Of a stretch of 64,000 nt of DNA, positions 1,585-35,730 are shown in pieces; within the stretch, counting starts at the first letter, position 1; each line of letters opens with the position of its first letter. A program made the position numbers and the translations under genes. The notes below the pieces were generated by a model. That model saw nothing but the letters and a program-made list of their open reading frames with translations, did no database searches and had not been told where the DNA came from. The stretch covers positions 3,720,001 through 3,784,000 of the forward strand of contig NZ_CP041372.2 of assembly GCF_006965545.2 (NCBI RefSeq). Reading direction: 5' to 3'. This DNA is from Paenalkalicoccus suaedae (GTDB taxonomy: Bacteria; Bacillota; Bacilli; Bacillales; Salisediminibacteriaceae).

Positions 1585-2481
1585 ATGGAAGAAACAACGT
1601 TGCCAGCTCAACAAGAGCAGCAAAAGCGGGTAAACCCGCAAATCGAAAACTTGAAGATGGTTTGGCGCAAGCTAAAAAAGAACAAGCTAGCGATGGCCGG
1701 CGGTTTTTTAATTATCTTCTTCGTTTTAACATCCTTTATCGGACCACTACTCACAAATGATGAGCTCTTAAATCCGAACGTATCGGATCGCTTACAGGCC
1801 CCATCTGGAGAATATTGGTTTGGTACTGACCACCATGGTCGTGATATCTTTACTAGAATCATTCACGGAATGTCAATTACTCTCTATATCGGATTCTTCT
1901 CTGTTGTTATAGGGTTAATTGTCGGAGTATTCTTAGGATTAGTTTCTGGATACTACGGTCGTTTAACGGATACGATCATTATGCGTTTTATGGACGTATT
2001 ACTTGCATTCCCTGGTATTTTATTAGCGTTAGGTATCATTGCAGCACTAGGTAATGGTATTAATAACGTAATTATTGCGATCGCGATCTTCTCCGTACCA
2101 GTTTTCGCACGTATTGTGCGTGGTTCGGTTCTTTCCGTGCGAAAGCTCGAGTATATCGACGCGATGCGCGCATTAGGAGCATCTGATGCTCGTATTATCT
2201 TCAAACATATTTTACCGAATATCATGTCTCCAATTATCGTTCAAGCGACACTGTTCTTGGCGACAGCTATTCTAACAGCGACAGGACTTTCCTTCTTAGG
2301 TCTAGGTGCTCAGCCACCAACTCCAGAATGGGGTGCGTTACTTGCGGCAGGTCGTAACTATATCTTTGAATATCCGCATATCGCCTTCTTCCCTGGTATT
2401 TCTATTGTACTTGTCGTATTAGCATTCAACCTATTTGGTGATGGTGTGCGAGATGCCCTTGATCCTAAACTTAAATCGTAA
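1585..2481 (+). CDS. Peptide ABC transporter permease, OppC/DppC type
   Basis: Inner-membrane permease subunit (298 residues, usual length) of the OppC/DppC family. The N-terminus carries the OppC_N segment (WRKLKKNKLAMAG then a hydrophobic helix, about residues 25-50). Five further membrane helices follow, and the cytoplasmic EAA-like loop near residues 190-215 (DAMRALGASDARIIFKHILP) contacts the ATPases. The region GRDIFTRIIHG is typical of the family. Start ATG at 1585 has RBS GAGGTTAGGAG. It is the first gene of a four-gene rightward operon. Here the C-type permease precedes the B-type, the reverse of the common B-C order. Confidence 0.92.
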   Translation: MEETTLPAQQEQQKRVNPQIENLKMVWRKLKKNKLAMAGGFLIIFFVLTSFIGPLLTNDELLNPNVSDRLQAPSGEYWFGTDHHGRDIFTRIIHGMSITLYIGFFSVVIGLIVGVFLGLVSGYYGRLTDTIIMRFMDVLLAFPGILLALGIIAALGNGINNVIIAIAIFSVPVFARIVRGSVLSVRKLEYIDAMRALGASDARIIFKHILPNIMSPIIVQATLFLATAILTATGLSFLGLGAQPPTPEWGALLAAGRNYIFEYPHIAFFPGISIVLVVLAFNLFGDGVRDALDPKLKS

Positions 2482-2499
2482 GAAAAGAGGTGAAGCCTG

Positions 2500-3417
2500 T
2501 TGTTAATTTATACTATTAGACGACTTCTACAGTTAATTCCGACATTAATCGGGGTATCGTTAATGGTTTTCCTATTAATGCACTTAATTCCTGGTGATCC
2601 AGCACAAATTATGGCTGGTGAGCGAGCAGATGAAGCACAGGTCGAACAGATGCGTGAGCGTCTCGGCTTAAACGATCCACTTCCAGTGCAATATTTACGC
2701 TTTGTCGGGGATGCCGTCCAAGGTGACTTAGGTAACTCGATTCGAAATGGACGAGCAGTTACAGACGAAATCGGAGCTCGTATTTGGATTACGGTTGAGC
2801 TTGCCGTATATAGTACCATTTTGAGTATTTTTATCGGTTTGATAGCTGGAATTATTTCCGCTACACGTCGAGGTAGCTTTGCAGATATGGCGTTAATGGT
2901 TATTGCCTTGTTTGGACTTTCCATGCCTAACTTCTGGCTTGGGCTTATGTTAATTCAATATGTAGCACTTCGTTTTGAGGCAATTCCACCTTCTGGTTGG
3001 GGAGGAGCGGCAGTAATCCTTCCTGTTATCACACTTGGTACAGCCGGTGCCGCAGTTATTGCCCGAATGACACGATCTAGCATGCTCGAAGTTATTCACC
3101 AAGATTACATCCGAACAGCACGAGCAAAGGGTGTAAAAGAAAGACTCGTTATTTATAAGCACGCGTTACGTAACGCACTTATTCCAGTAGTAACAGTAGT
3201 AGGTTTACAGTTTGGTGGTTTACTAGGAGGTGCCGTACTTACTGAGACGGTATTTGCCATTAATGGTTTAGGTCGCTTTGTTGTTGACAACATCGCAGCC
3301 CGTGACTTCCCGAACGTACAAGGTGCCGTATTAGTCCTTGCTGTCCTATTCGTATTAGTTAACTTTGCTGTCGACTTATCGTATCGCTTCTTAAACAAGC
3401 GAGTAGAATTAGACTAA
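2500..3417 (+). CDS. Peptide ABC transporter permease, OppB/DppB type
   Basis: Second permease subunit (305 residues) pairing with the upstream OppC-like protein. It begins with the classic OppB start [18 protein letters not shown], followed by [15 protein letters not shown], and carries the EAA loop [24 protein letters not shown] (about residues 205-230). Six membrane helices are evident. The start is TTG at 2500, 18 bp after the previous stop, supported by RBS AAAGAGGTG at 2484-2492. Translation initiation from TTG in two consecutive genes suggests tuned, moderate expression. Confidence 0.92.
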
Positions 3418-3448
3418 ACTATTCCAGCATAGAAAGGTGGGAGACCTG

Positions 3449-4492
3449 TTGGAAATTAAAGATTCCATTATACACGTAGATGAATTACAAACTTCCTTCT
3501 TCACAGAACGTGGAGAAGTGAAGGCTGTTGATGGTGTTACATTTGACGTACCGGCCGGTAAAACACTCGGTATCGTAGGAGAATCCGGTTCAGGTAAAAG
3601 TATTACTTCTTTATCTATCATGCGGTTAATTGAGTCACCAGGTGAAACGATCGGTGGATCGATTACGTTTAACGGCGAGGATCTTCTTGCTAAATCGGAA
3701 GCGCAAATGCGCAAGATTCGCGGGAAAGAAATCTCGATGATCTTCCAAGAGCCAATGACGTCGCTAAACCCCGTATTTACGGTTGGTGACCAAATTGCGG
3801 AAGCATATCAGGTTCACGAAGGACTTTCGAAAAAAGAAGCATTGAAAAAGGCATTAGGCATGCTTGAATTAGTTGGTATCCCTTCTCCTAAAGCTCGTTT
3901 GAAGGCGTACCCTCACGAACTATCAGGAGGTATGCGTCAGCGTGCGATGATCGCCATTGCACTTGCTTGTCGCCCTCAGCTCCTTATTGCCGATGAGCCA
4001 ACAACCGCATTAGACGTAACGATCCAAGCTCAGATTCTTCGACTCATCAATGGGCTGCAAGAAGAGCTTGGTATGGCTGTATTACTAATCACTCACGACC
4101 TTGGTGTTGTTGCTGAAACTTGTGATTACGTAGCAGTTATGTATGCAGGTAAGGTTGTGGAATATGCAGATGTAAACACACTATTTGCTGATCCAAAGCA
4201 CCCTTACACTGTTGGACTATTGAAGTCGCTACCACGTCACGATATTGATATGGAAGGCGAAGATCTAGACGTTATTAAAGGAATGGTTCCAAGCCCTAAC
4301 GAATTACCGGAAGGCTGTCGCTTTGCTCCACGTTGCCCGTTTGCAACTGAGCTATGCCACAACGAGTTACCATCTTTAAGAGATTTAAATGACAAAGACC
4401 AAGTACGATGCTGGATCTATACAGACCAGTGGGATGGACCGGAGGTGAACGTGCAAAATGACTACTCAGCTGCTCAAAGTACAGAATCTTAA
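3449..4492 (+). CDS. Peptide ABC transporter ATP-binding protein, OppD/DppD type
   Basis: Cytoplasmic ATPase of the peptide transporter (about 347 residues). Walker A GESGSGKS lies at residues 44-51. The Q-loop is in [10 protein letters not shown], the signature is [12 protein letters not shown], Walker B is [12 protein letters not shown] and the switch His is in ITHDLG. The C-terminal oligopeptide/dipeptide extension contains the [10 protein letters not shown] cysteine motif seen in OppD/DppD, often able to hold an iron-sulfur cluster. The TTG at 3449 sits 6 bp after AAAGGTGGGAG and is preferred. An in-frame GTG at 3437 would give a four-residue extension but overlaps the RBS. Confidence 0.92.
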
Positions 4493-5474
4493 GCAATACT
4501 TCCCTATTAAAGGTGGTGTCTTAGGACGTAAAATCAATGATGTAAAAGCCGTTGACGACATTAGCTTTGAAATTAAAGCTGGTGAAACATTAAGTATCGT
4601 TGGGGAGTCTGGTTGTGGTAAATCGACAACTGGCCGCGCGATCCTTCGTTTAGACGAACCTACTTCTGGTTCTGTCGAGTTTGATGGGAAAGATCTTCTT
4701 GCCCTAAACAAAGGTCAAATGCGTAAAATGCGTAAGGATCTTCAGATCATTTTCCAGGATCCATATGCGTCTATTAACCCGCGTCAAACTGTTCGTCAGA
4801 TCTTGAGTGAAGCAATGGAGATTCAAAAGGTTGTCCCTAAAGATAAGATGGACGCTCGCATGAAGGAGCTTATGGAGACAGTTGGTCTCGGCGCTCACCA
4901 GCTTGACCGCTTCCCTCACGAGTTCAGTGGTGGCCAGCGTCAGCGTATTGGTATCGCACGTGCCCTATCTGTTGATCCAAAGCTTATCATCTGTGATGAG
5001 TCTGTATCGGCACTTGACGTATCGATTCAAGCACAGGTACTCAACCTGCTTAAAAAACTACAAAGAGAGCTTAATTTAACATATCTATTCATCTCACACG
5101 ATTTAGGTGTTGTTCGACACATTTCTGACCGCGTACTCGTTATGTACCTGGGTAAAATCGTGGAGATTGCAGATAAGAAGAGCCTTTTTGATAATCCGAA
5201 GCATCCGTATACGCAGACACTACTATCTGCTATTCCAGTTCCGGATCCAACAAAGAAGAAGGACCAGGTTATCCTCAAAGGTGACGTTCCTTCTCCAATC
5301 GATCCTCCATCTGGATGTCGTTTCCACACTCGTTGTCCATTCGCGACAGACAAGTGTAAAAACGAAGAGCCGCTTCTTCGCAACACAGAAGTAGCAGGCA
5401 TGGCAGAAGGCCATATGGCAGCGTGTCACTATATCGAAGAAATCGCTTCTGGAGAAATGAAGCGTCAGTACTAA
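4458..5474 (+). CDS. Peptide ABC transporter ATP-binding protein, OppF/DppF type
   Basis: Second ATPase (338 residues) forming the heterodimer with the OppD-like protein. Walker [10 protein letters not shown] lies at residues 49-57. [11 protein letters not shown], the signature [15 protein letters not shown], Walker [13 protein letters not shown] and ISHDLG follow. The C-terminal cysteine motif [10 protein letters not shown] is again present. ATG 4458 has RBS GGAGGTGA, and the gene overlaps the 3' end of the OppD gene by 35 bp, so translation is probably coupled. A strong terminator follows, which ends the operon. Confidence 0.93.
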
Positions 5475-29493: not shown

Positions 29494-30930
29494 TTATTTC
29501 TTCTTTTCATCCCAAGACTCAATGCCCTTAAGTCCTTTAACACTATCTCGGTAGAAGGTTGGATCGAGCCCTTGCTTCATTTGGCCTTGATAATGCTTGA
29601 GTGCTTTTATGGCAATATGCCCGAGTAAGAGAACGGCAATTAAGTTGACGACTGCCATGGATCCCATGAAGAAGTCAGCTGCTTCCCAAATATTCTCTAG
29701 TTGCGCTGTTGCGCCAACAAAGATCATTCCGATGAAAGCTAAACGGAATAGAAGTAAGAAGATCTTGTTTTGCGAAATAAATTCGATGTTCGCTTGTCCA
29801 TAGTAATAGTTACCTAGTAGAGAGCTGAATGCGAAGAAGAAGATCGCAATAGCTACAATAGGCGTTGCCCAGTCACCAATGTGCGCGGATAGCGCGTTTT
29901 GCGTAAGCTGGATACCCTCCATGTCACCGTATGTGTGTACATCGGCAAGTAGGATAATAAACGCTGTCGCACTACAGATAATAATCGTATCTACAAGTAC
30001 CCCTAATGATTGTACAAATCCTTGCTTAACAGGGTGATCGACATAAGCTGTAGCTGCTGCGTTTGGCGCACTACCCATACCTGCTTCGTTAGAAAACAGG
30101 CCGCGTTGCACACCGTTTACGATGGCTGCACCAATACCACCTGCAACGACCTCCTGCACCCCGAATGCATTCGCAAAAATTAATCCGAATACTTGCGGTA
30201 CAGCTGTAATATTCATAATCATAATGATTAACGCAGTGATCACATACACGATTGCAAAAATCGGTACAATGACTTCTGCCACTACTGCAATTCGACGAAT
30301 ACCACCGAAAATGATGATACCCATCGCTACTGCTAAAACAGTAGCTACAATCCAAGGCTCCACGCTATAGGCACCAGCGAATGCGTCGGCAATTGTGTTT
30401 GTTTGTAGTCCATTAAATAAGAGACCAAAACATAGAACTAAAAGGATCGCAAAAATAATACCCATCCAGCGTTGACCTAAGCCGCGTTCCATATAATAAG
30501 CAGGTCCGCCACGGAACCCGTCCTTATCCTTTACTTTATAAATTTGCGCTAGCGTACTCTCAATAAATCCAGTCGCTGCACCTATCAATGCCACGACCCA
30601 CATCCAAAAGATGGCACCAGGACCACCTACAGAGATAGCAATCGCCACACCTGCAAGGTTACCAGTTCCGACTCTTGCCGCTGTACTAATTGCGAAAGCC
30701 TGGAAAGGGCTTGTACCTTTTCCCTTTTTAAAGTCACTGCGGTCTGTTCCTTTAATAAGCTCCTTGACCATTGTAGGCAACATGCGAAACTGTACGAAAT
30801 TTGTACGAATCGTTAAGTATAATCCTAATCCTAAAAGAAATGCGATAAGTATGTATGTCCATAAAATTCCGTTCCCAGCAATAATAAAGTCACCGAGAAA
30901 TGTCCCTTCAGCAAACCACTGATCCACCAT
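29494..30930 (-). CDS. Alanine/glycine:cation symporter, AgcS family
   Basis: 478 residues, about 11 helices, taking up alanine or glycine with Na+ (or H+). Signature regions are GNLAGVAIAISVGGPGAIFWMWV and the conserved GLFSNEAGMGSAPNAAATA, the latter contributing to substrate binding. FRGGPAYYMERGLG is also typical. ATG 30930 follows GGGGGAG. Sodium coupling would suit an alkaliphile. Monocistronic, divergent from the flavin reductase gene. Confidence 0.95.
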   Translation of the reverse strand: MVDQWFAEGTFLGDFIIAGNGILWTYILIAFLLGLGLYLTIRTNFVQFRMLPTMVKELIKGTDRSDFKKGKGTSPFQAFAISTAARVGTGNLAGVAIAISVGGPGAIFWMWVVALIGAATGFIESTLAQIYKVKDKDGFRGGPAYYMERGLGQRWMGIIFAILLVLCFGLLFNGLQTNTIADAFAGAYSVEPWIVATVLAVAMGIIIFGGIRRIAVVAEVIVPIFAIVYVITALIIMIMNITAVPQVFGLIFANAFGVQEVVAGGIGAAIVNGVQRGLFSNEAGMGSAPNAAATAYVDHPVKQGFVQSLGVLVDTIIICSATAFIILLADVHTYGDMEGIQLTQNALSAHIGDWATPIVAIAIFFFAFSSLLGNYYYGQANIEFISQNKIFLLLFRLAFIGMIFVGATAQLENIWEAADFFMGSMAVVNLIAVLLLGHIAIKALKHYQGQMKQGLDPTFYRDSVKGLKGIESWDEKKK

Positions 30931-31059
30931 AATTACTCCCCCTACTTTTTATTTATTCACATTTTAATACCCTTTTTACTATGATTGGTAAACGCAATTA
31001 TTGTAACTTTTGCACAATTCATACGTTATTTTCGTACATACAAAAAGGAGTGAATGGCT

Positions 31060-31605
31060 ATGCGTACGTTAGTACTTTTAGGAAGCACAAGGAATGCGAG
31101 CAACTCTACACTACTTGCAGCTCGTCTCACACAAGGAGTTCCTCATACAACAGCACGACTAACCGATTATACCATTAATCCGATTGTTGACCAGCGTCAC
31201 GACGAGGGTGGCTTCACACCTGTAGACGACGACTTTAAGGAGCTCGCACGGCACATGATCAACCATGATAGGATAATATTTGCGACCCCCCTCTACTGGT
31301 ACGGGATGAGCGGTCCAATGAAGAATTTTGTCGATCGCTGGTCGCAGTATTTACGAGATACATCTATGCCCTTTAAAGCGTCATTGGCCGAAAAGGAGGC
31401 CTATGTCATTATCACTGGTGGCCCTCACTCAAAATCAAAAGGCCTGCCGTTAGTAACACAGTTCCACTACATTTGTGATTTTGTTGGCATGAAGCTAGTT
31501 GATTATGTCATCGGTCGAGGTGTAAGGCCTGGAGAAGTTACAAACGACTTGAATGCCCTTGCAACCATTGATAGATGGAATGATCATTTCAAAAAACAAC
31601 CATAA
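31060..31605 (+). CDS. NAD(P)H-dependent FMN reductase / flavodoxin-fold oxidoreductase
   Basis: About 181 residues. LLGSTRNASNSTLLAARL is the N-terminal FMN phosphate loop, and FATPLYWYGMSGPMKNFVDRW the flavin-ring motif common to NADPH-dependent FMN reductases and quinone reductases. ATG 31060 is at the best distance from AAGGAGTG. The ATG at 31054 is too close to it. Physiological substrate unknown. Confidence 0.87.
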   Translation: MRTLVLLGSTRNASNSTLLAARLTQGVPHTTARLTDYTINPIVDQRHDEGGFTPVDDDFKELARHMINHDRIIFATPLYWYGMSGPMKNFVDRWSQYLRDTSMPFKASLAEKEAYVIITGGPHSKSKGLPLVTQFHYICDFVGMKLVDYVIGRGVRPGEVTNDLNALATIDRWNDHFKKQP

Positions 31606-31645
31606 TAAAGCCCCATCTGCTTTTAATAGCGGATGGGGCTAAAAT
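31605..31645. terminator. Bidirectional terminator between flavin reductase and subtilisin genes
   Basis: Arms AGCCCCATCTGC and GCGGATGGGGCT with an 8-base loop, AT-rich on both sides. Confidence 0.85.
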
Positions 31646-31667
31646 AACTGCGGGGGACAGTTACGTG

Positions 31668-32783
31668 TTACCGGTTAATCGCATTTGCAGATTGGACGAG
31701 TCCAGATCCGTATTGGAAGGACGATCCAAGTGGCGTCGCTGTGCTATTTAACAGCTGACGTAATTGTACGTTAGATAGGTTAGGCTTTGCTTGCCAAACC
31801 TGTGCTGCTACACCTGCTACGTGAGGAGCGGCCATCGACGTTCCATTAAGAGAACCATAGCGGTTACCTGGAAGCGTACTTAGTACGCCTACCCCTGGAG
31901 CAGAAATTTCTACTGTTGGACCTGTGCTTGAGAAGCTTCCACGACGGTTATTTTGATCCGTCGCCGCTACTGCCATAGCGGAGCTATATCTAGCAGGGAA
32001 GTTAACAGTATCTGTATTACCTGCCGCATTACCACTGTTACCAGCAGCTGCAACGACTAAAATACCTCGTTGATAAGCCAAATCTGTATAAGCCTGAAGG
32101 ATAGAGGATCCTTGTGAACTACCTAAACTCATGTTGATGACATTCATGTTATTATTAACAGACCATTCAATGCCCTGCGCAATTCCTGCAAGAGAGCCTG
32201 AACCGTTGTTATTCAATACTTTTACAGCGTATAACGATGCATTCGGAGCAACTCCGATGACACCTACACCGTTACGAGCAGCTGCTACAGTACCAGCAAC
32301 GTGAGTCCCATGACCATCTCCATCAAAGTAAGGATCACGGTTTGCTACATCAGTAAATACAGAGTATCCTCCGCGTACATTAGCCTGTAGGTCTGGATGG
32401 CTGCGATCAATTCCTGTATCTAATACTGCTACACGGATTCCATTTCCATTAAAACCAGCGTTTTGCGCTGTTACACCTTGTACACGAGTAACTCCGTAAG
32501 GTACTTGACCTAGCTTTTGAACCTCAGCATTGTCCTCTAGTGCTTTAACCTGCGGATGACCTAATAATGCATCTGCTTGATCATCCGTAAGCTCTAGCTG
32601 ATAGACAGGAAGCAAGTCAAATTCATGGATAACCTGATCCTCTTCAATGCCGAACGCATTAAGTAACCCGTTCGCTGCGTTACCTTTAAACTGAACAATA
32701 TATTCATCATATTCTTCAGCTGCTCCTACGTATGTAGGAAGCATAAAAAATGCTACAATAAGTAATGCGAGTAATCTTTTCAC
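31668..32783 (-). CDS. Secreted subtilisin-family serine protease
   Basis: 371-residue pre-pro-enzyme. The signal peptide spans about residues 1-21 (cleavage after VGA-A). Inhibitor_I9 propeptide covers about 25-90 (YIVQFKG...), and the mature domain begins near residue 93 (QVPYGVTRVQ). The catalytic triad is Asp122 (VAVLDTGID), His158 (GHGTHVAG) and Ser316 (GTSMAAPHVAG), with oxyanion Asn249. The mature length of about 278 and the sequence around the active site resemble alkaline subtilisins of alkaliphilic bacilli. The start is GTG 32783 with RBS AAAGGAGAGGA. It lies 35 bp after the peptide gene in the same direction, so the two are probably co-transcribed and controlled by the divergent regulator. 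Confidence 0.95.
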   Translation of the reverse strand: MKRLLALLIVAFFMLPTYVGAAEEYDEYIVQFKGNAANGLLNAFGIEEDQVIHEFDLLPVYQLELTDDQADALLGHPQVKALEDNAEVQKLGQVPYGVTRVQGVTAQNAGFNGNGIRVAVLDTGIDRSHPDLQANVRGGYSVFTDVANRDPYFDGDGHGTHVAGTVAAARNGVGVIGVAPNASLYAVKVLNNNGSGSLAGIAQGIEWSVNNNMNVINMSLGSSQGSSILQAYTDLAYQRGILVVAAAGNSGNAAGNTDTVNFPARYSSAMAVAATDQNNRRGSFSSTGPTVEISAPGVGVLSTLPGNRYGSLNGTSMAAPHVAGVAAQVWQAKPNLSNVQLRQLLNSTATPLGSSFQYGSGLVQSANAINR

Positions 32784-32818
32784 GAATTGATCCTCTCCTT
32801 TGGCTTTTAAATTACGGC

Positions 32819-32947
32819 TTATGCTTCATAAGGTAAGTCATTCGGTGTTACGATGAAGTCAACAAACGCCTGTGGCTCAGCTGCACCAGCAGCTGTAGCA
32901 ACTGTAAGTAAAGTAGCAACGACAGCAAAGATAACTAGCTTTTTCAT
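32819..32947 (-). CDS. Secreted PapR-like signalling prepeptide (42 aa)
   Basis: A 42-codon gene. ATG 32947 is preceded by a near-perfect AAAGGAGGT at 9 bp. The product has MKKL, a hydrophobic stretch and two AXA cleavage sites (A17-T-A19, A20-G-A22), leaving about 19-23 residues ending TPNDLPYEA. The last seven residues NDLPYEA resemble the PapR pheromone core ADLPFEF of the Bacillus cereus group (established peptide; similarity judged by eye). It is divergent from the PlcR-like regulator gene and directly upstream of the subtilisin gene. In B. cereus, papR instead follows plcR. Export by Sec, trimming outside and re-import are inferred. Confidence 0.72.
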   Translation of the reverse strand: MKKLVIFAVVATLLTVATAAGAAEPQAFVDFIVTPNDLPYEA

Positions 32948-32975
32948 ACGATTACCTCCTTTCCGTCTTAGATTC

Positions 32976-32996
32976 ATTTATCATAGGTTGATAAAT
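32976..32996. promoter_or_regulatory. Perfect palindrome between prepeptide and PlcR-like genes
   Basis: Arms ATTTATCA (32976-32983) and TGATAAAT (32989-32996) are separated by TAGGT. The palindrome lies 28 bp before the peptide start and 33 bp before the regulator start. On the plus strand it is just upstream of a -10-like TATAAA (33005-33010). On the minus strand TTGTCA (about 33029-33024) and TATCCT could form a peptide promoter. It does not match the known PlcR box TATGNANNNNTNCATA, so this regulator would have its own site. Confidence 0.55.
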
Positions 32997-33029
32997 TAGC
33001 AGGATATAAACTTACTAGGGTGATGACAA

Positions 33030-33920
33030 ATGGATAAACTGACATTTGGTGCTACAATTGAACGTATACGTAAAGAACGTTTCATGTCGCAAAAGCAGCT
33101 TGCCGCTGGAATCTGTACACAAGCAGCAATATCCCGTATTGAAAAAGGGTTAGTCTATCCTAAAATTGATACGCTCTACTTAATTGCCACGAAGCTTGAT
33201 GTACCGATCGACTACTTTATCGACGTGCTAACAAACACACATCGTGCCGAACGTAACGCGTTCATTTCTATGATGGAAGATCTTTTAGCAGAGCAAAAGT
33301 TTGAAAAGATTTATCCAATCGTAGAAGAGCATCTTGAGAACGACGATGGCAATGACTATTGGCTCGCGGAGTTTATGCGCTGGCTCTATCATTTAAGCTC
33401 TTTTCATACAGAACGCACGACTCTTGAAGAGGCTGTGCTCCGTCTAAAGAAGCTACTAGATAAAAATGAGAACAACGCTGAGATGCAAGGCCAATTGTAC
33501 AAACGAATTAATAATTCGATTGCGTATTTACTTGCAACGAATGGGCAGTACGATACGAGCCTATACTATTTTGAGAAAGTACTTAAGAAGAAAGAAGAGC
33601 TCGAACATGTGAAGCCCACTTTACAAGCAGATATCTTCCGCATTCGTGTCATGTACAACAAAGCCAAGACACTTTTTGACATGGGCTCGTTTGAAGAATC
33701 TCTCAAAACCATTGAAGAAGGCATTGAAGAATCTCTAAACAGAGAGAACATGTCCTTACTAGGTCAGTTTTATTACTACAAAGGTCAATGCTACGAGCAA
33801 CTCAACTATAAAGAGGATGAGATCCGTGAGTGCTATCAAAAAGCTCTTTTCTTTTTCGAAACATTAGATAAAAAGCTCTATAGCAGATTGATCTGGCAAC
33901 ATAAAAAACAGTACCTGTAA
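33030..33920 (+). CDS. PlcR-like HTH/TPR quorum-sensing regulator (RRNPP family)
   Basis: 296 residues. The N-terminal XRE helix-turn-helix spans about 7-62 (ERIRKERFMSQKQLAAGICT, then QAAISRIEKGLVYPKIDTL). Helical TPR-like repeats follow from about 75 to the end. The C-terminal stretch MSLLGQFYYYKGQCYEQLNY with KALFFFETL closely matches the corresponding part of PlcR as I remember it (ALIGQLYYQRGECLRKLEY, KKASFFFDIL). Length is also close to PlcR (285). Proteins of this family bind a short re-imported peptide in the TPR groove and then DNA. ATG 33030 has AGGGTGA. The divergent secreted peptide gene is its probable partner. Confidence 0.88.
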   Translation: MDKLTFGATIERIRKERFMSQKQLAAGICTQAAISRIEKGLVYPKIDTLYLIATKLDVPIDYFIDVLTNTHRAERNAFISMMEDLLAEQKFEKIYPIVEEHLENDDGNDYWLAEFMRWLYHLSSFHTERTTLEEAVLRLKKLLDKNENNAEMQGQLYKRINNSIAYLLATNGQYDTSLYYFEKVLKKKEELEHVKPTLQADIFRIRVMYNKAKTLFDMGSFEESLKTIEEGIEESLNRENMSLLGQFYYYKGQCYEQLNYKEDEIRECYQKALFFFETLDKKLYSRLIWQHKKQYL

Positions 33921-34001
33921 GCAAATAATTGAATTTTTCAAACTATTTGATAGTTATACTACTCTCTCAAACAATTTTTCACAATAGCAATTCCAAACTT
34001 A

Positions 34002-34051
34002 AATATAACTGAAGTTATATTAAATGGAATTATATGTATCCAACATGCATA
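34002..34051. promoter_or_regulatory. Palindrome and PlcR-box-like half-sites upstream of the small lipoprotein gene
   Basis: Arms AATATAACT (34002-34010) and AGTTATATT (34013-34021) are separated by GA. Just downstream, TATGTA (34033-34038) and TGCATA (34046-34051) match both halves of the PlcR box, but with 7 instead of 4 intervening bases. Either could be the operator of the next gene, but this is sequence only. Confidence 0.35.
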
Positions 34052-34114
34052 CATCGCTATTTATCGACTAATTTTGAGTATTTACACCTATTTTTTTATA
34101 GAAAGCAGGCCTAG

Positions 34115-34525
34115 ATGATCATGCGTTATTTCTTTTTATTTTCGATGCTTTTGCTGTTGACAGCATGTGCCGACATCAGCACAGCAACTTATTATGATGA
34201 ATCCGAGCAGTGGTCCGTGATCATGGATCGCTCCACGTTACCTAGCCCACTTCGAAGCGAAGCAGCGATTACCTTCACGTATTTAGGTGATGAGGAACCT
34301 ATTTCTGGGATCACGGCAACATACGATTCCGAGGCAGCTTTTTACGAGCCATTGACACACGACATCGGGGAGATCCCAGACGGAAATGCCGTGCGCCAAA
34401 CGATGAACTACGATGAAGTAACACAGGTATACGAGGAAGGCGAAACGCTTATGGTGCTCCTCCAATGGCAAGTAAATGGTGAGACACGGTCCGAAGATTT
34501 TGAGCTCATGTATATCGACGATTAA
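34115..34525 (+). CDS. Small lipoprotein of unknown function
   Basis: 136 residues. Signal peptide MIMRYFFLFSMLLLLTAC with lipidated Cys18, then an acidic beta-rich domain (FTYLGDEEPISGITATYDS... MVLLQWQVNGETRSEDFELMY). The fold recalls YtkA/immunoglobulin-like extracellular domains, but I do not recognise the family. ATG 34115 is about 6 bp from a weak GCAGG, and an ATG two codons on is possible. It is in the same direction as the PlcR-like regulator, about 195 bp downstream, behind possible operators. Confidence 0.75.
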   Translation: MIMRYFFLFSMLLLLTACADISTATYYDESEQWSVIMDRSTLPSPLRSEAAITFTYLGDEEPISGITATYDSEAAFYEPLTHDIGEIPDGNAVRQTMNYDEVTQVYEEGETLMVLLQWQVNGETRSEDFELMYIDD

Positions 34526-34533
34526 CGTTGCAT

Positions 34534-34567
34534 AGAAAAAAACCGCTGAAACCAGCGGTTTTTTTCT
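34534..34567. terminator. Bidirectional terminator between two convergent lipoprotein genes
   Basis: Arms AACCGCTG and CAGCGGTT with a 4-base loop, flanked by A7 and T7. Confidence 0.93.
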
Positions 34568-34570
34568 TAC

Positions 34571-35467
34571 TTATTCTTCTCCATCAGGATTTAATCTGCT
34601 TGCAATATCCTCATAAGACCCTTCCGTTACCTCCATGCCTTCTGGAGCCATGAAGAGACTCTCGTCAAACTCCGGATTAACTTCAAATTCTAACACTTCG
34701 CGCGTTGTTGTCGCGCTACCTGCACCAGCATCGCCTTCACCAGTTAAGACTAAGTTTCCTTCTGAGCGCACCTCCATATAAGTTTCTTGATCAAACCACA
34801 AGGAGAGTGTTTGCCCTTCTAATTCAATGTCAATGTGATGCGTATTAAATCCATTGACCTCTTCCTCTCCCACATAGGTTAGCCCGGCATCCACCATATA
34901 AGAATCATAACGCTCGCCGTATGAGTTAAACCAAGCTATATCCTCTGCAGCAGTATTCTCTGCGGCTTCATAGCGGATCGCCTCTTCATCTCCCTCGGTA
35001 TAAAAAATATGGTAGGCAGGATCACTTTCATCCGTAAACATGATGTTTAAAGGGATGTCTGCTCCATCTTCAGTGCTTGTCATTGACTCTTCTCGCACAT
35101 ACGTAATGTCGCCCTCCACAAAGATCCATTCCATTTGATCTGTCGTCGTCATCTCTTCGCCTACCATCGATTCAGAAACGGAGTCTACGTATACGCTAGT
35201 TAAGCCTTCGTGGAATGAAATAGCTTGCTCTAATACGTCCACTGCTTCTTCATCCTGCGGTAAAGCTCCACCAACGTCGGGATCATTCGCATCGTTCTCT
35301 TGCTCCATATTCTCTTCATTGTTTTGATCAGGCTCATTCGCAGGCTCGTTATTCTCTACTTGAGCATTATTTACCGGCGCTTCCTCTCCATTGTTATCAT
35401 TCGAACCGCAGGCTGCGAGTAGTGCAACTGCCGTCATTGCTGAAAATGCTATGTTTGTTTTTTTCAT
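34571..35467 (-). CDS. LolA-like / DUF-type acidic lipoprotein
   Basis: About 298 residues from ATG 35467, preceded by AGGGGTG; a GTG at 35476 is rejected. Lipobox LAAC, Cys20, then a ~45-residue low-complexity linker rich in Asn, Glu and Asp. The folded part carries MEWIFVEGDITYVREES, a HIDIELEGQTLSLWFDQETYMEVRSE strand pair and a C-terminal FEVNPEFDESLF. This arrangement is that of the Bacillus DUF6612/LolA-like extracytoplasmic lipoproteins. No direct functional evidence. It is very acidic, as expected for a surface protein in an alkaliphile or halotolerant cell. Confidence 0.78.
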   Translation of the reverse strand: MKKTNIAFSAMTAVALLAACGSNDNNGEEAPVNNAQVENNEPANEPDQNNEENMEQENDANDPDVGGALPQDEEAVDVLEQAISFHEGLTSVYVDSVSESMVGEEMTTTDQMEWIFVEGDITYVREESMTSTEDGADIPLNIMFTDESDPAYHIFYTEGDEEAIRYEAAENTAAEDIAWFNSYGERYDSYMVDAGLTYVGEEEVNGFNTHHIDIELEGQTLSLWFDQETYMEVRSEGNLVLTGEGDAGAGSATTTREVLEFEVNPEFDESLFMAPEGMEVTEGSYEDIASRLNPDGEE

Positions 35468-35730
35468 GTTTGACACCCCTACTACTTATCTAAGATTTAT
35501 TTTCTTCATATGTGTCGTATTTCCGTTATAACGAATCTAAAAACGTGTTTTTTGTCATAGGGTGACGAAAAAGGTAGTAGCCTCCGTTTGTGTACTATAA
35601 CAACAAGGGCATAAAACTATTTAATTTTTGGGAATACTTAGCATAATTGTTGCATTTTCACCCGTTTTTCTATACGCTAAAAGGGTAATTTAGAAGATTT
35701 TGCAAAATAATCGATAAGAAGGGAGAAATT

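Follow-up and report, generated by a model that had tools for sequence, protein, structure and literature searches.

The 64,000-nt stretch of Paenalkalicoccus suaedae DNA analysed here (contig NZ_CP041372.2, forward-strand positions 3,720,001 to 3,784,000; hereafter the window) carries a small gene located between a subtilisin gene and a divergently oriented regulator gene. For this small gene, which lies below the usual length cut-off, a reading of the letters without database searches (the sequence-only reading) had proposed a secreted prepeptide whose last residues resemble those of PapR. The features, in window positions, are the following.

31668-32783, minus strand: S8 subtilisin gene, 371 aa, hydrophobic signal-like start (Peptidase_S8, 4.7e-69)
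32819-32947, minus strand: papR-like gene for a 42-aa Sec-type propeptide; similar genes accompany 23 of the 31 other PlcR-like receptors examined
32822-32842, minus strand: predicted mature heptapeptide NDLPYEA, residues 36-42 (from position and motif compared with PapR7)
32882-32947, minus strand: signal-peptide-like stretch, residues 1-22, AXA at 17-19 and 20-22 (by reading)
32954-32962, minus strand: Shine-Dalgarno sequence AAAGGAGGT, ending 6 nt ahead of the ATG
32976-32996, no strand: perfect palindrome ATTTATCA-TAGGT-TGATAAAT between the divergent genes, a weak candidate operator
33030-33920, plus strand: PlcR-like HTH-TPR receptor/regulator gene, 296 aa, transcribed away from the papR-like gene

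The translation of the small ORF is MKKLVIFAVVATLLTVATAAGAAEPQAFVDFIVTPNDLPYEA (42 aa). A mechanical ORF list puts the start of this frame at an upstream ATG (32977; 52 aa), but we prefer the 42-aa start, since the Shine-Dalgarno sequence belongs to it. This sequence had already been recognized in the sequence-only reading, although its spacing to the ATG is 6 nt and not 9; the two AXA sites (ATA and AGA) and the 35 bp between the stop of the peptide gene and the GTG start of the subtilisin gene were given correctly. The signal of the propeptide was judged by reading, from its basic start, its hydrophobicity and the AXA sites. A Pfam search of the propeptide revealed no family, and an NCBIfam search gave only three matches, which cover the signal part at E 0.04-0.25. 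The pattern D-[LF]-P-Y-E occurs at three places in the 4.04-Mb genome, and only in the papR-like gene is it ORF-terminal. As PapR7 forms for comparison we used ADLPFEF, KDLPFEY and SDLPFEH, as reported in PMC3519770 and PMC10017872.

The product of the divergent gene matches RNPP_C (1.4e-53) and HTH_3 (5.3e-12), and its best sequence match in the PDB is PlcR (2qfc, E 5.9e-45). The AlphaFold model (pLDDT 87.6) has its best fold match, spanning residues 3-292, in 3u3w, i.e. PlcR with PapR7 and DNA (TM 0.76/0.80); in a second fold comparison 3u3w (Z 28.1, rmsd 4.2 over 279 residues) was level with 2qfc. The protein has the N-terminal HTH and the TPR peptide-binding domain that characterize RRNPP receptors. 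In the receptor tree, which was rooted at the midpoint only and from which NprR, Rap and Rgg rows were left out, B. thuringiensis PlcR, the window and the loci with a D-x-P-x-E peptide share a 37-row group (100/100), six other RNPP receptors fall outside it, and the window lies in a ten-row group of its own family (100/100). Based on these sequence comparisons, we assign the receptor to the PlcR subfamily.

The peptide motif beside related receptors

We used a collection comprising 1 genome of the same genus, 35 of the family and 397 of the order. Receptor matches at E 0.001, mostly weak, were present in 32 of the 35 family genomes, and 175 of the 397 order genomes matched a 16-row receptor profile at 1e-30. 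The 32 loci (L numbers; from 27 genomes, G numbers) considered in the following represent all 15 family matches with E ≤7e-48, among them the window, together with 17 of the 20 remaining order matches with E ≤4e-64. The three order matches left out (G044, G153, G179) have peptides ending in DDPGIGWRY.

A peptide ORF was counted if it was small, preceded by a Shine-Dalgarno sequence and hydrophobic at its start, and if its final 14 residues contained D-x-P-[YFH]-E. Such an ORF was located within 500 bp of the receptor gene at 24 of the 32 loci, or 24 of 35 if the three omitted matches are included. Within this distance, 24 of 73 small hydrophobic ORFs with a Shine-Dalgarno sequence carried the motif, compared to 0 of 266 farther off in the same loci and 0 of 57 comparable ORFs in 25 other stretches of the window's own genome. 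The Fisher value of 3e-18 is optimistic, because the pattern was widened to D-x-P-[YFH]-E after some loci had been seen. The strict form DLP[FY]E, which was fixed beforehand by the window and PapR, was found at 17 of the 32 loci, corresponding to 16 of 31 without the window. When D-x-P-[YFH]-E(x) right before a stop codon was counted in all six frames, 22 occurrences were obtained in the 60 kb around receptors, compared to 2 in 322 kb of other sequence; the latter are an 8-codon frame and an additional peptide gene of L071, a copy located about 1.8 kb from the receptor that the small-ORF filter had missed. Peptide and receptor genes are divergent at 23 of the 24 loci, including the window, and tail-to-tail at one (L113). 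From the adjoining PlcR-type receptor and the recurrence of the C-terminal motif beside related receptors, the proposed unlisted prepeptide gene is supported.

At eight of the 32 loci no D-x-P-[YFH]-E peptide gene was found within 500 bp of the receptor. Among these, L099 has a same-strand peptide ending in DLKHEY and L115 a divergent one ending in TFPFEH. Outside the 32 loci, the weaker RNPP relatives L095-L098 (E > ~4e-64) have peptides with other endings. Two of the eight, the sister receptors L066:6001-6885 and L067:2323-3207, belong to the ten-row clade of the window, and L067 has kept the subtilisin gene. An ORF-terminal D-[LF]-P-Y-E was found nowhere else in their genomes (G001 and G008), and G001 encodes a second receptor (L068) with a peptide ending in DSPYEA. 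These two receptors look orphaned or dependent on another ligand.

At the 24 loci, the core residues D, L, P, Y/F/H and E are encoded by many different synonymous codons. Among three close relatives (G005, G006, G007), the pN/pS ratios of the peptide gene are 0.19, 0.28 and 0.26, and a further pair (G103, G061) gave 0.29; conservation in relatives, as opposed to frame decay, is thus borne out in four species pairs. The last eight codons differ among G005, G006 and G007 by synonymous changes only (2-3 per pair). At the level of sequence comparison, we regard the gene, the receptor, their linkage and the conserved C-terminal core as established, and we consider it highly probable that ORF 32819-32947 encodes the papR-type pheromone by which a quorum-sensing circuit of the PlcR type (RRNPP) operates.

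Some loci depart from the simple arrangement. L071 has two similar same-strand peptide genes near one receptor (one ending at L071:1731, the other at 3245-3385; endings MDLPYEG and SDFPYEG), and in L062:5771-5917 and L065:6960-7100 the core occurs twice in one propeptide (DLPYED ... MDLPYED), repeats within PlcR-type propeptides having been reported (PMC9765709). The PlcR-group receptors of L089, L090 and L093 are accompanied by divergent secreted peptides ending in DDPGIGWRY, possibly another pheromone code.

Ligand pocket, position 7 and the intergenic region

The sole specific contacts of PapR7 in PlcR are reported to be those of Glu6 with Lys89, Gln237 and Tyr275 (PMC6568020), which align with Q89, Q246 and Y284 of the window receptor; the Lys89 contact is not kept, Q89 being adjoined by K90. 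Across the 32 loci, the place of K89 is taken by Q in 15, H in 8, K in 5 and R in 4, that of Q237 by Q in 23 and N in 8, and that of Y275 by Y in 30, while the place of PlcR N201 is N throughout (32/32). The place of K204 is K in 29, and all three exceptions (L099, L101, L110) are among the eight loci without the motif (56/4960, ~0.011), L099 and L101 being sisters in the tree.

At position 7 of the peptide, 14 different residues (A, S, R, W, D, K, G, P, T, V, N, F, H, Y) were found across the 24 loci. In the window this residue is Ala, and exchange of Phe7 for Ala in PapR7 is reported to abolish activation of the PlcR regulon in B. thuringiensis (PMC6568020); therefore, the pocket of the window receptor must differ. 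With 14 kinds of residues, position 7 looks like a pherotype letter and not like a loss of function. By its sequence, the window peptide should represent a distinct pherotype.

Peptides can switch RRNPP receptors in either direction. The secreted signal might hence serve as an anti-activator, or act on a different receptor as Phr does on Rap. Such a reading would agree with the expectation that Ala7 makes the peptide inactive or inhibitory towards B. thuringiensis PlcR (PMC6568020), but the variety of residues at position 7 resembles a pherotype letter, and the window's genome holds a single match to this receptor at E 0.001. We consider this alternative unlikely compared to an activating pheromone of the PlcR type.

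Between the divergent genes, we searched for a potential operator. The PlcR box TATGNANNNNTNCATA was not found in window positions 32701-33050, the best site having 4 mismatches, and its core ATGNANNNNTNCAT occurs at 121 sites in the genome vs 104 for the reversed control; since this is near the control frequency, no regulon was drawn from it. Exact PlcR boxes were present in two of 21 relatives scanned (L087 and L092: TATGAAATTTTTCATA and TATGCATTTGTACATA), located less than 50 bp upstream of the receptor start, between the receptor and the papR-like gene. Since these relatives are distant, the operator may have changed in the lineage of the window.

The palindrome at 32976-32996 was considered as the operator as well. 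Its 8-bp arm length was reached in 30 of 2000 shuffles, which makes it unusual, but its 19-bp core has a single exact copy in the genome, and no counterpart was seen upstream in 15 relatives. Of 21 similar sites with one or two mismatches (L003-L023), none is located ahead of an obvious exoprotease gene and 14 fall within ORFs of ≥100 codons; L008 precedes a lipoprotein-like gene. The palindrome is kept as a weak candidate operator only.

The proposed circuit and the subtilisin

The PDB matches of the subtilisin are of the Carlsberg, BPN' and Savinase kinds. The papR-like gene lies between the subtilisin gene, 35 bp behind it, and the divergent receptor gene, and a peptide gene together with a co-directional subtilisin gene was found at 10 of the 32 loci. 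Seven of these belong to the ten-row clade of the window, in which L060 has the peptide gene only, L067 the subtilisin gene only and L066 neither; the others (L106-L108) are from another family. Based on gene starts estimated from alignments, the gap between the two genes is ~27-45 bp in the seven own-clade loci and ~230-250 bp in L106-L108. In the seven, the short gap makes a joint transcript of peptide and subtilisin genes likely. This expectation rests on the gap and its conservation, because scans of positions 31500-33200 revealed no excess of promoter-like sites (3 vs a shuffle mean of 4.2) or terminator-like sites (1 vs 1.5). A search of 30900-35600 against Rfam gave no match at the gathering threshold.

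By analogy to PlcR-PapR of B. cereus and B. thuringiensis, the propeptide would be exported by the Sec pathway, extracellular proteases would release the C-terminal NDLPYEA or a peptide of slightly different length, and an oligopeptide permease would re-import it. The peptide would then bind the TPR groove of the receptor via its glutamate, upon which the receptor would activate the divergent papR-like/subtilisin unit, resulting in a positive feedback, and perhaps other genes. The oligopeptide-binding-protein family PF00496 has seven matches in the genome. At the left edge of the window (1585-5474), an oligopeptide permease set of two permeases and two ATPases lies beside a binding-protein gene and represents a possible importer.

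We hypothesize that the subtilisin is most likely the output of the circuit, a digestive enzyme shared at high cell density. A weaker but plausible hypothesis assigns it a further role in maturing the pheromone, similar to that of NprB towards PapR. A protease adjoining its pheromone has a precedent, since NprB of B. cereus, often encoded beside plcR-papR, is reported to help mature PapR (PMC10017872, PMC4147580).

Alternatively, the peptide could serve the subtilisin instead of the receptor, as a secreted inhibitor, a chaperone or a propeptide-like helper. The gene order would fit, with the peptide gene 35 bp ahead of a co-directional subtilisin gene in the window and ahead of one at nine other loci. 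However, at 14 of the 24 peptide loci (L060, L068-L072, L100, L103-L105, L111-L114) there is no subtilisin match within 900 bp of the receptor start, and the conserved part of the peptide is its C-terminal core, which matches PapR; we therefore judge a helper function improbable. Finally, short ORFs with start codons are common and 49 of the 73 small ORFs near receptors lack the motif, but a chance or decayed frame is practically ruled out by the motif counts near and far from receptors (24/73 vs 0/266), the synonymous codon variation, pN/pS below 0.3 with the last eight residues identical in three species, and the only ORF-terminal D-[LF]-P-Y-E of the genome.

The pheromone circuit can be compared with known systems. 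In the NprR-NprX-nprA system of the B. cereus group, an RRNPP receptor gene, a peptide gene and a secreted protease gene are likewise clustered; NprR belongs to another RRNPP subfamily, its peptide is unlike the one described here, and the protease is a neutral metalloprotease. With PlcR-PapR of the B. cereus group, best known as a virulence switch, the window shares an HTH-TPR receptor of the same subfamily, a Sec-type propeptide of similar size (48 aa in PapR, 42 aa here) and a heptapeptide at the C terminus that contains D-L-P-(F/Y)-E. There, too, the gene of a secreted protease is often adjacent, namely nprB (PMC10017872), which encodes a metalloprotease and has the opposite orientation, whereas an S8 subtilisin gene directly follows the peptide gene here. 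In addition, papR is located downstream of plcR, while the papR-like gene is divergent from its receptor gene, and residues 5 and 7 are Tyr and Ala here, position 7 being aromatic or His in PapR of the B. cereus group. By sequence, the circuit therefore differs from that of B. cereus in gene order, residue 7 and the PlcR box, which was not found upstream here. PlcRa, a PlcR paralogue of B. cereus, has a peptide, PapRa, with a Tyr in its core as well (CSIPYEY), and its N205, K208 and Y280 correspond to N210, K213 and Y284 here by motif mapping; in contrast, PapRa is described as 93 aa long with an internal heptapeptide, and PlcRa as acting in oxidative stress and cysteine metabolism (PMC3519770).

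According to a survey, PlcR is found predominantly in Bacillus (PMC9765709), and thousands of candidate receptor-peptide pairs have been catalogued with RRNPP_detector (PMC10075063), whose supplementary tables may hold single pairs of the kind described here. Among the literature matches listed, there was no description of a PlcR/PapR-type system beside a subtilisin, and the string DLPYE led only to papers on other subjects, judged by title.

The placement of a PlcR-type receptor and peptide core beside an extracellular subtilisin in other lineages of the Bacillales suggests that density control of secreted digestion is a wider, perhaps older role of this system. Subtilisins of this kind include industrial enzymes, and whether a seven-residue peptide induces one can be tested directly. 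Moreover, the 24 receptor-peptide pairs, with a variable residue 7 on a fixed D-L-P-x-E, represent a natural data set on the evolution of pheromone specificity.

A second receptor type beside subtilisins

Via other close subtilisins, we found a second RNPP receptor type within the same family (RNPP_C 2.8e-20, PlcR 7.4e-21). Its gene is co-directional with and located ahead of the S8 subtilisin gene, and divergent from a small secreted ORF, e.g. in L139 (receptor at 1919-2722, peptide at 2896-3009). The peptides end in APP[EKRP]YTHG in nine loci (L135-L143) and in GDLP[YF]RHR in two (L144, with the peptide at 182-289, and L145). Of 20 subtilisin loci fetched, 11 have this receptor type and the other nine no receptor, which is not to be read as a frequency, because the 11 were picked for an already known adjoining RNPP gene.

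In the subtilisin tree, a group of 23 of the 35 rows (100/100, its deeper branching order being unresolved) contains PlcR-linked, second-type-linked and unlinked genes side by side; outside this group are L099, L069, L142-L145 and second copies, which are linked. The occurrence of one protease clade beside two pheromone systems speaks for a functional linkage, and the second type resembles another quorum-sensing code for this clade. We only tentatively put forward the full picture, in which the three genes form a self-contained circuit, the subtilisin being the common product and at the same time the enzyme that releases the pheromone, and in which the subtilisin clade has been re-wired within the family between a DLPYE/PlcR-type and an APPxYTHG/second-type code; on balance it is rather doubtful. 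At one further locus, for which no adjoining receptor was found, a small secreted ORF ending in PEPTSIEIEL (L146:1120-1251) precedes an S8 subtilisin gene.
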